From Actinomycetota bacterium (GTDB taxonomy: Bacteria; Actinomycetota; Actinomycetes; S36-B12): a stretch of 41,436 bases of DNA. The position numbers and the translations under genes are program-made. This document shows positions 24,533-27,549 of the stretch, in pieces. The stretch spans positions 1 to 41,436 of the forward strand of contig WLOE01000004.1 in the NCBI GenBank assembly GCA_009699465.1, written 5' to 3'. The notes under the pieces were generated by a model. It made no database searches, was not told the origin of the DNA, and was given only the letters and a program-made list of their open reading frames with translations. The first letter of the stretch is position 1; every line of letters begins with the position of its first letter.

Positions 24533-25027
24533 ATGAAGAAAGTTCTCGCATCAGTCTTAACTGTGTTCGCAGTTGTTGTTGCTGCACCAGCACAGGCCGC
24601 ACCCGCCGCTCAAGAGGTTGTGCTCGTTACAACACTGACAAGTGTTGGCACCAGCCTGAACACCATCGGCAACGTGAAGTACGGATGGAATGACCTTAAG
24701 GGTGTTGCCAATTGGGGTAAAGAATCAGTATCTATTCGGCTCCAAGGTGATGTCGCGTACAAGAATGACAGTGGGCCGTTCAATGGTTACTTCACCATCA
24801 CGAAGGCCGATGAAACACAACTTGCCTTCCACGTAGATGGTCAGGCATTACCAGTGCCAGTGAGTGGTGGAATCAGGACCAATTTCCGCGGAGTGATGAA
24901 CTTCTTGCAGGGTTCAGGTGCCTATTCGAATGCGCAATCAACCGGGACGATGATTGGTGCGCGCGAAGCTGCAATTGGCAGCCCAGTGAAAATGACGTTG
25001 CGCTTCACGGTTGTACCGCGCGTATAA
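24533..25027 (+). CDS. Secreted protein, possibly AOC-barrel/dirigent-like fold
   Basis: Signal peptide 'MKKVLASVLTVFAVVVAAPAQAA'; beta-rich 164-aa protein ending 'GVMNFLQGSGAYSNAQSTGTMIGA...MTLRFTVVPR', a gGaYanA-type pattern. Confidence 0.6.
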   Translation: MKKVLASVLTVFAVVVAAPAQAAPAAQEVVLVTTLTSVGTSLNTIGNVKYGWNDLKGVANWGKESVSIRLQGDVAYKNDSGPFNGYFTITKADETQLAFHVDGQALPVPVSGGIRTNFRGVMNFLQGSGAYSNAQSTGTMIGAREAAIGSPVKMTLRFTVVPRV

Positions 25028-25457: not shown

Positions 25458-25679
25458 ATGGGTAAAAAAGACGGAGCGATCGAGCTTGAGGGCACGATCA
25501 TGGAGTCTTTGCCTAATGCCATGTTTCGCGTGGAGTTGGACAACGGTCACAAAGTTCTTGCGCATATCAGCGGCAAGATGCGAATGCACTACATCCGCAT
25601 CCTGCCTGATGACCGCGTAGTTGTTGAACTTTCTCCGTATGACCTCACCCGCGGCCGCATCGTCTATCGCTACAAATAA
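25458..25679 (+). CDS. infA: Translation initiation factor IF-1
   Basis: ATG at 25458; 73 aa '[73 protein letters not shown]'. Confidence 0.98.
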
Positions 25680-25703
25680 CCACACGAGGACTGGCAAAAC
25701 ATC

Positions 25704-25817
25704 ATGAAGGTGAACCCAAGCGTCAAGCCGATCTGCGATAAGTGCAAGGTCATTCGTCGCCATGGCCGCGTCATGGTGATCTGCGAGAACACTCGCCACA
25801 AGCAGCGTCAGGGCTAA
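25704..25817 (+). CDS. rpmJ: 50S ribosomal protein L36 (zinc-binding form), absent from supplied ORF track
   Basis: 37 aa read directly: [37 protein letters not shown]. Confidence 0.98.
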
Positions 25818-25989
25818 TACCTGACGAGGGTCAATGCGGGGAGAAATCCCGTACGACCTCAACTGTGAAGTACCCGACCCCCAGGTAACTGGGACGACAC
25901 CTTGAGCCACGGGGCTCAAGACCTGATCTGACGGTCAGGGCTGGTACTTCAATCGAAACCCCGTGCATGAGAAGAAGAGAGAACGTCAC
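25818..25989 (+). ncRNA. Putative structured cis-regulatory leader upstream of rpsM
   Basis: Nested perfect inverted repeats: GAAGTACC/GGTACTTC enclosing CCCAG-GTAA-CTGGG, CTTGAGCC-ACGG-GGCTCAAG and CCTGA/TCAGG; a 5' GAGGGTC/GACCTC hairpin containing GGGA-GAAA-TCCC; alternative long-range CACGGGG/CCCCGTG. Confidence 0.7.
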
Positions 25990-26367
25990 ATGGCACGTCT
26001 TGTTGGTGTCGATCTGCCGCGCGAAAAGCGCATGGCAATCGCACTCACCTATATCTATGGCATCGGCCGCTCACAGGCTTCCGCCGCCCTCACCGCCACG
26101 GGCATTGATCCAGAAATGAAGTCCAAGGACCTCACCGACGATCAGACACTTGCTCTGCGCGATTGGATCGATCAAAACCTCAAGGTAGAAGGCGATCTTC
26201 GCCGTGAGGTTGCAGCTGATATTCGCCGCAAGGTGGAAATCGGTTGCTATCAGGGTCTTCGCCACCGTAAGGGCCTTCCGGTCCGCGGTCAGCGCACCCA
26301 TACCAACGCGCGTACTCGTAAGGGTCCTCGTAAGACCGTCGCTGGCAAGAAGAAGGCCGCGAAGTAA
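25990..26367 (+). CDS. rpsM: 30S ribosomal protein S13
   Basis: ATG at 25990; '[30 protein letters not shown]', '[24 protein letters not shown]'. Confidence 0.97.
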
Positions 26368-26406: not shown

Positions 26407-26814
26407 ATGGCACCCAAGGCAGGACAGAAGGGCGCGGCGAAGAAAATTCGCCGCAAGGAGAAGAAGAACGTGGCCCACGGCCACGCTCACATTAAGAGCA
26501 CGTTCAACAACACGATCGTCTCTATCACTGACCCAACAGGCGCAGTCATTGCATGGTCAAGCGCTGGCCAAGTTGGTTTCAAGGGTTCACGTAAGAGCAC
26601 CCCATTCGCCGCACAGCTCGCAGCAGAATCTGCAGCGCGTCGCGCAATGGAACACGGTATGCGCAAGGTTGACGTGTTCGTGAAGGGTCCAGGCTCAGGT
26701 CGCGAAACTGCTATCCGTTCGTTGCAGGCAACTGGTCTTGAAGTTGGTTCAATCGCCGACGTCACTCCAGCGCCTCATAACGGCACCCGTCCACCAAAGC
26801 GTCGTCGCGTCTAA
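26407..26814 (+). CDS. rpsK: 30S ribosomal protein S11
   Basis: '[50 protein letters not shown]'. Confidence 0.98.
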
Positions 26815-26845: not shown

Positions 26846-27472
26846 ATGGCGCGTTATACAGCTGCCGATTGCAAGCGGTGCCGTCGCGAGAAGATGAAGT
26901 TGTTCCTCAAGGGAGCAAAGTGCGAGTCACCAGCATGCCCATTCGAAAAGCGTCCTTACCCACCAGGCCAGCACGGCCGTGGTCGCTCAAAGGATTCCGA
27001 ATACTTGCTCCAGTTGCGCGAAAAGCAGAAGGCAACCCGTATGTACGGTGTGCTGGAGAAGCAGTTCTCGAACTACTTCGTTGAAGCTGCTCGCCAGTCA
27101 GGTAAGACCGGTGAAAACCTGCTCGTCATTCTCGAGACTCGCCTTGACAACGTGGTGTTCCGCGCTGGCTTTGCCAAGTCCCGTGACATGGCACGTCAGT
27201 TGGTCACCCACGGTCATTTCCTCGTCAACGGCAAGAAGGTCAATATTCCTTCCTTCCGTGTCAGTGCTGCTGACATCGTCGAGGTTGCACCTAGCTCACG
27301 CGAACTGACTCCATTTGTGATTGCACATGCAGAGATCGGTGATCGCCCAGTGCCAGCATGGCTCGAAGTGATCCCATCTAAGATGCGCATCCTCGTGCAC
27401 GCACTCCCATCGCGCGCAATCATCGACACCCCTGTCACCGAACAGCTGATCGTCGAGCTCTACTCCAAGTAA
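26846..27472 (+). CDS. rpsD: 30S ribosomal protein S4 (Cys-containing form)
   Basis: 'MARYTAADCKRCRREKMKLFLKGAKCESPACPFEKRPYPPGQHG'; S4 RNA-binding 'RLDNVVFRAGFAKSRDMARQLVTHGHFLVNGKKV'. Confidence 0.97.
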   Translation: MARYTAADCKRCRREKMKLFLKGAKCESPACPFEKRPYPPGQHGRGRSKDSEYLLQLREKQKATRMYGVLEKQFSNYFVEAARQSGKTGENLLVILETRLDNVVFRAGFAKSRDMARQLVTHGHFLVNGKKVNIPSFRVSAADIVEVAPSSRELTPFVIAHAEIGDRPVPAWLEVIPSKMRILVHALPSRAIIDTPVTEQLIVELYSK

Positions 27473-27549
27473 TCCCTAGTAGTTGGAACGCCCTAACTAC
27501 TCGACAAAATCGCGATTTCAAATAATGGTCGTCGCGGGAAGGAAGACAC

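Follow-up and report, generated by a model that had tools for sequence, protein, structure and literature searches.

Several RNA leaders have been described ahead of operons that contain rpsM (S13) or rpsD (S4). The S4 leader of the E. coli alpha operon (Alpha_RBS; RF00140) lies before rpsM and carries a pseudoknot near its ribosome-binding site, and the S4 leaders of Clostridia, Fusobacteriales, Bacteroidia and Flavobacteria (PMC7247131), like the rpsD leader of Firmicutes, also precede rpsM- or rpsD-containing operons and have S4 as their predicted ligand. Little is known of how ribosomal-protein synthesis is balanced in Actinobacteria (PMC8470358), and no rpsM leader is entered for them in the table of a 2020 leader survey (PMC7247131). 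Within Actinobacteria, the ribosomal-protein leader of mycobacterial rpsO (S15) depends for repression on a pseudoknot upstream of the initiation site (PMC8470358), and the L17-Actino-Proteobacteria leader (RF03132) belongs to the same gene cluster as rpsM, where it was found at rplQ in two Streptomyces loci. In the passages searched of Arnvig et al. (2011; PMC3207917), the rpsM 5′ UTR of M. tuberculosis is given as 216 nt long and highly expressed, the rpsM mRNA is among the most abundant, and the UTR is aligned with that of rpoA, coordinate regulation being suspected; the same passages, figure S2 aside, describe no fold or pseudoknot for it.

The window analyzed here, the whole 41,436-nt stretch of DNA, has a 172-nt spacer between the rpmJ stop codon (25817) and the rpsM ATG (25990). 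An earlier note had described a highly structured leader in this spacer, and its paired arms were found to be placed correctly to the base when checked against the sequence. A scan of the window against Rfam 15, at gathering score and at E<=10, returned nothing relevant at rpsM. A scan of eight loci of the class also returned nothing there, RF03132 at rplQ being the sole match and serving as a positive control, so that the possibility of a known family, raised in the earlier note, was not borne out. The Alpha_RBS model had no match in the window and none above cut-off in 12 relatives, whose sub-threshold matches lie elsewhere and never at the rpsM leader; it exceeded the cut-off in one control genome. 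Failure of this model at the leader agrees with the earlier view that the architecture is unlike that of the E. coli element. The leader described here shares with Alpha_RBS its position before rpsM, a pseudoknot close to the ribosome-binding site and, probably, control of translation. In contrast to Alpha_RBS, it has its pseudoknot upstream of the Shine-Dalgarno region, builds it on a four-way junction and often precedes operons without rpsD. It differs from the other S4 leaders in having no Rfam match, from the rpsO leader, which it resembles by description, in gene and in ligand, and from RF03132, which lies downstream before rplQ and not at rpsM, in both position and fold. The existence of the UTR was already known, but no description of the rpsM leader fold was found in the literature searched, and the fold is missing from Rfam. 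Judging from family-level matches nested with Rhodococcus and Nocardia, the rpsM 5′ UTR of M. tuberculosis is very probably this leader at the corresponding position.

The core of the fold spans positions 25867-25965, where P1 encloses P2, P3 and P4 to give a four-way-junction RNA (Table 1). Of 200 dinucleotide shuffles of the spacer, 199 folded less well than the native sequence (z -2.6); this score alone is modest evidence in GC-rich DNA, and the comparative evidence is decisive. The 5′ accessory hairpin does not belong to the conserved core. In most of the 24 members of the window's family its GGGAGAnAACC core is nearly constant and the flanking stems vary, and no such hairpin was seen in other families, in both cases as judged from single-sequence folds. 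Just 5′ of P1, 110-160 nt before rpsM, an ACAACTGAAYA segment recurs across several families, at 20 of 208 scored loci (including L239, L262, L266-L268 and L282-L285), and is possibly a promoter or transcript start.

Table 1. Leader and operon features at the rpsM locus of the window.
Feature	Position	Strand	Description
5′ accessory hairpin	25826-25860	+	GGGGAGAAATCCC core and flanking stem GAGGGTC (25826-25832)/GACCTC (25855-25860)
P1, 5′ strand	25867-25874	+	GAAGTACC; closing stem of the four-way junction; partner 25943-25950
P2 arm	25875-25896	+	outer CG/CG (25875-25876/25895-25896); asymmetric loop ACC/A
P2 inner hairpin	25880-25893	+	CCCAG-GTAA-CTGGG; from sequence
P3 hairpin	25901-25920	+	CTTGAG (25901-25906), 8-nt loop CCACGGGG, CTCAAG (25915-25920); stem 1 of the pseudoknot
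Pseudoknot, 5′ strand	25908-25914	+	CACGGGG; last 7 nt of the 8-nt P3 loop; adjoins the P3 3′ strand
P4 hairpin	25922-25939	+	CCTGATC/GGTCAGG; arms 25922-25928/25933-25939
P1, 3′ strand	25943-25950	+	GGTACTTC; partner 25867-25874; comparative pairing
Pseudoknot, 3′ strand	25959-25965	+	CCCCGTG; 3′ end 24 nt upstream of the ATG at 25990
Putative rpsM Shine-Dalgarno region	25970-25983	+	purine-rich; from sequence and position
rpsM (S13)	25990-26367	+	first regulated gene (proposed)
rpsK (S11)	26407-26814	+	second gene of the operon
rpsD (S4)	26846-27472	+	four-cysteine form; gone from the operon in several related lineages

Comparative sets of 36 order-level and 93 class-level leaders were used to examine the helices. 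Among the 36 order-level relatives, standard pairs filled 93.7% of pair cells, compared with 76.8% after shuffling and at most 45% when partner columns were slid by one to three positions, and two-sided changes were observed in 28 of the 35 pairs. These included seven of the eight pairs of P1, five of the six of P4 and six of the seven of the pseudoknot. In the class-level alignment, which was fitted to the model and hence leans towards the structure, 95.8% of cells were paired (73.3% shuffled), P1 and P4 had two-sided changes at every pair (8/8 and 6/6), and P3 was paired in 99.6% of cells. The corresponding value for P3 in the smaller set was 98.1%. Five of the six P3 pairs had two-sided changes, and P4 was paired in 96.8-96.9% of cells over the two sets. 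Judged from these alignments, every helix, the pseudoknot included, is backed by compensatory change in relatives; the covariation of the arms that the earlier note had asked for is present in both sets, and its description of a highly structured leader near the S13 start holds. The P2 cap in the order is a GNRA-like loop or CGUGC, the latter replacing the tetraloop in many Nanopelagicales families (L011, L018, L024, L034, L045 and others), and P2 as a whole is highly variable over the class.

As established by sequence comparison, the P3 loop and the downstream strand form an H-type pseudoknot that is stacked on P3 with a 0-nt linker. The strand pairs found in relatives include CACGGGG/CCCCGTG, CACGAGG/CCTCGTG, GAAGATG/CATCTTC and GTAAAGG/CCTTTAC. 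In an alignment-independent test over distinct loops, 264 summed pairs were counted when each loop was matched with its own tail, compared with 186 +/- 7 when tails were swapped. This result, together with the two-sided changes, upholds the pairing that had been proposed between the two strands ahead of the rpsM ATG. In nearly every relative the 5′ strand of the pseudoknot abuts the 3′ side of P3 without a linker, and across the class its 3′ strand ends 18-29 nt upstream of the start codon (mean distance of 23.1 nt where rpsD is in the operon and 21.0 nt where it is not). The earlier note had left the choice between a pseudoknot and a switch, having drawn P3 as CTTGAGCC-ACGG-GGCTCAAG (25901-25920). 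Competition between P3 and the loop-tail pairing in the window amounts to only 2 bp, a CC/GG extension of P3 that is not general among relatives; in most of them P3 has 6 bp, and the loop is most often 8 nt long, so that both pairings can coexist. The element is therefore read as a conserved pseudoknot, and the idea of a switch between mutually exclusive folds was dropped.

Searches with the rpsM protein reached 55 of 59 order-level genomes and also 80 named loci. The nearest named relative is a Candidatus Nanopelagicales bacterium, and the window is therefore probably from that order. Covariance model R1 matched 115 of 131 genomes of the order. In the class (GTDB Actinomycetes), model R2 matched 221 of 297 genomes, with one copy in each, and it matched none of 262 genomes sampled from other classes of the phylum. 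The figure of 221/297 is a lower bound, since the rpsM locus is missing from several unmatched assemblies and most of the non-matches inspected at rpsM keep the P3-pseudoknot core. Two apparent second copies were rejected: that in genome G059 sits at a contig edge behind infA-rpmJ, and that in G097 is weak (28 bits) with no operon gene nearby. The leader lies at the rpsM start in every locus examined, and its restriction to one lineage and one operon is that of ribosomal-protein leaders in general. The short rpmJ-rpsM spacer of Acidimicrobiia and Coriobacteriia leaves no room for it, and Geodermatophilaceae keep the operon with a short spacer from which the leader has been lost. Taken as a whole, the matches place the leader across nearly the entire class that holds Streptomyces and mycobacteria, ahead of a highly expressed operon.

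A second hairpin, CGCGA-TTTCAAATAATGGTCG-TCGCG, was observed in the same operon just 5′ of the rpoA Shine-Dalgarno region (27511-27536). Its loop motif, TCAWATARYGG, was present in 157 of 184 scored loci, nearly all misses lying outside the class, and its stem covaries, 93% of core cells being paired (70% shuffled). By these counts the rpoA hairpin is class-wide; it had no Rfam match.

These results suggest that the rpsM leader is probably a cis-acting ribosomal-protein leader of the rpsM operon and a candidate repressor of rpsM translation. We infer that a small-subunit protein in excess of free rRNA would bind the junction and pseudoknot and stabilize the fold beside the Shine-Dalgarno region, so that the initiating ribosome would be blocked or trapped. 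Translation of rpsM would then be lowered and that of rpsK would follow by coupling. A ribosomal-protein leader is supported by the single copy per genome, the covariation and the narrow 18-29 nt spacing noted above, and operons of this kind are translationally controlled in other phyla (PMC10931766; PMC7247131). The pseudoknot upstream of mycobacterial rpsO and the high expression of the M. tuberculosis rpsM 5′ UTR also fit. Loss of the leader from the retained operon of Geodermatophilaceae counts against it. Translational control is favored because no terminator-like site was found in 25600-26050; a promoter scan was likewise empty. Model R2 scored at most 6 bits on two 16S loci and thus gave no sign of rRNA mimicry, a point against a ribosomal-protein leader, although many leaders lack such mimicry, some S4 leaders among them (PMC7247131).

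As to the ligand, rpsD lies two genes downstream of rpsM in the window, as had been noted, and most of the class likewise keeps it within the operon. Streptomycetaceae, a Micrococcales/Actinomycetales-like clade and two further families do not. Of 139 scored loci, 37 have no rpsD in the operon (one of them, L111, outside the class), and its presence changes state six times on a tree of S13, S11 and RpoA. S4 is then encoded elsewhere by a paralog of about 45% identity. At least 29 of these 37 loci passed the strict pseudoknot test, and most of the others show variants by eye. Since the leader persists without rpsD in the operon, S4 autogeny alone does not explain its conservation, and S4 is not an obvious ligand. 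The link to S4 hinted at earlier is weakened by these lineages. In one of them, Streptomyces zagrosensis, a broken four-cysteine-type rpsD remnant was seen between rpsK and rpoA (L120 ~1858-2201; G144:C25); the genome also carries an intact, divergent rpsD at another site. The stand-alone rpsD genes (L168-L179) have their own conserved-looking upstream sequence (GGAGCGTCGCGCACCG... in the Streptomyces-like and CCTGGGGTCTYAGCC... in the Micrococcales-like loci), which is unlike the rpsM leader.

Where the Streptomyces operon lacks rpsD, rplQ is preceded by a leader of its own and rpoA by its hairpin. The rpsM leader would then act chiefly on rpsM-rpsK, and the remaining candidates are S13, S11 and an S4 acting in trans; L17 is an unlikely ligand there because rplQ is already served by RF03132. 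S13 and S11 are serious candidates on this ground, and a leader with the product of rpsM or rpsK as its repressor is possible, if rather unlikely. To our knowledge, neither protein is an autogenous repressor in bacteria or a primary 16S binder, which weighs against them. A broader reading, a class-wide leader family with S13 or S11 rather than S4 as ligand alongside a separate conserved hairpin that would control rpoA, is tentatively entertained. That the element is an S4 leader proper, with S4 binding the RNA and repressing the operon as in E. coli, in trans where rpsD has moved, is doubtful. In gamma-proteobacteria and Firmicutes the equivalent operon or gene is indeed under S4 control, and S4 has been predicted as the ligand for four other lineages (PMC10931766, PMC7247131); the usual place of rpsD in the operon fits as well. 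The six changes of state with the leader persisting beside a divergent S4 paralog argue against it, as does the search for a leader before the relocated rpsD, in which, with filters off, none was found and the best near-match (19 bits) lay far upstream. Were the ligand a ribosomal protein, S4 would be the tentative first choice, S13 a less probable one and S11 less probable again, with any other protein improbable. Comparing lineages that keep rpsD in the operon with those that do not could separate S4 from S13 and S11, and the pseudoknot strands can be broken and restored, making the leader a ready test system.

It is improbable that the leader has no ligand and serves instead to fix the rate of initiation, to shield rpsM from transcripts reading through from upstream or to direct cleavage by RNases. 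The great abundance of rpsM mRNA in M. tuberculosis, as given in the passages searched of PMC3207917, and the direct action of RNase J on many ribosomal-protein transcripts of Streptomyces venezuelae (PMC12096830) would suit such a role, but a four-way junction and pseudoknot kept constant over a class would seem to exceed its needs. Transcription attenuation or a small-molecule riboswitch, suggested by the complex aptamer-like fold, is very improbable given the lack of a terminator-like site in 25600-26050, the fixed distance from pseudoknot to start codon and the confinement to a ribosomal operon.

Upstream of the leader, between map and infA within the ribosomal gene cluster, the window also contains a predicted ORF of 164 aa (24533-25027) that begins with a signal-peptide-like sequence.
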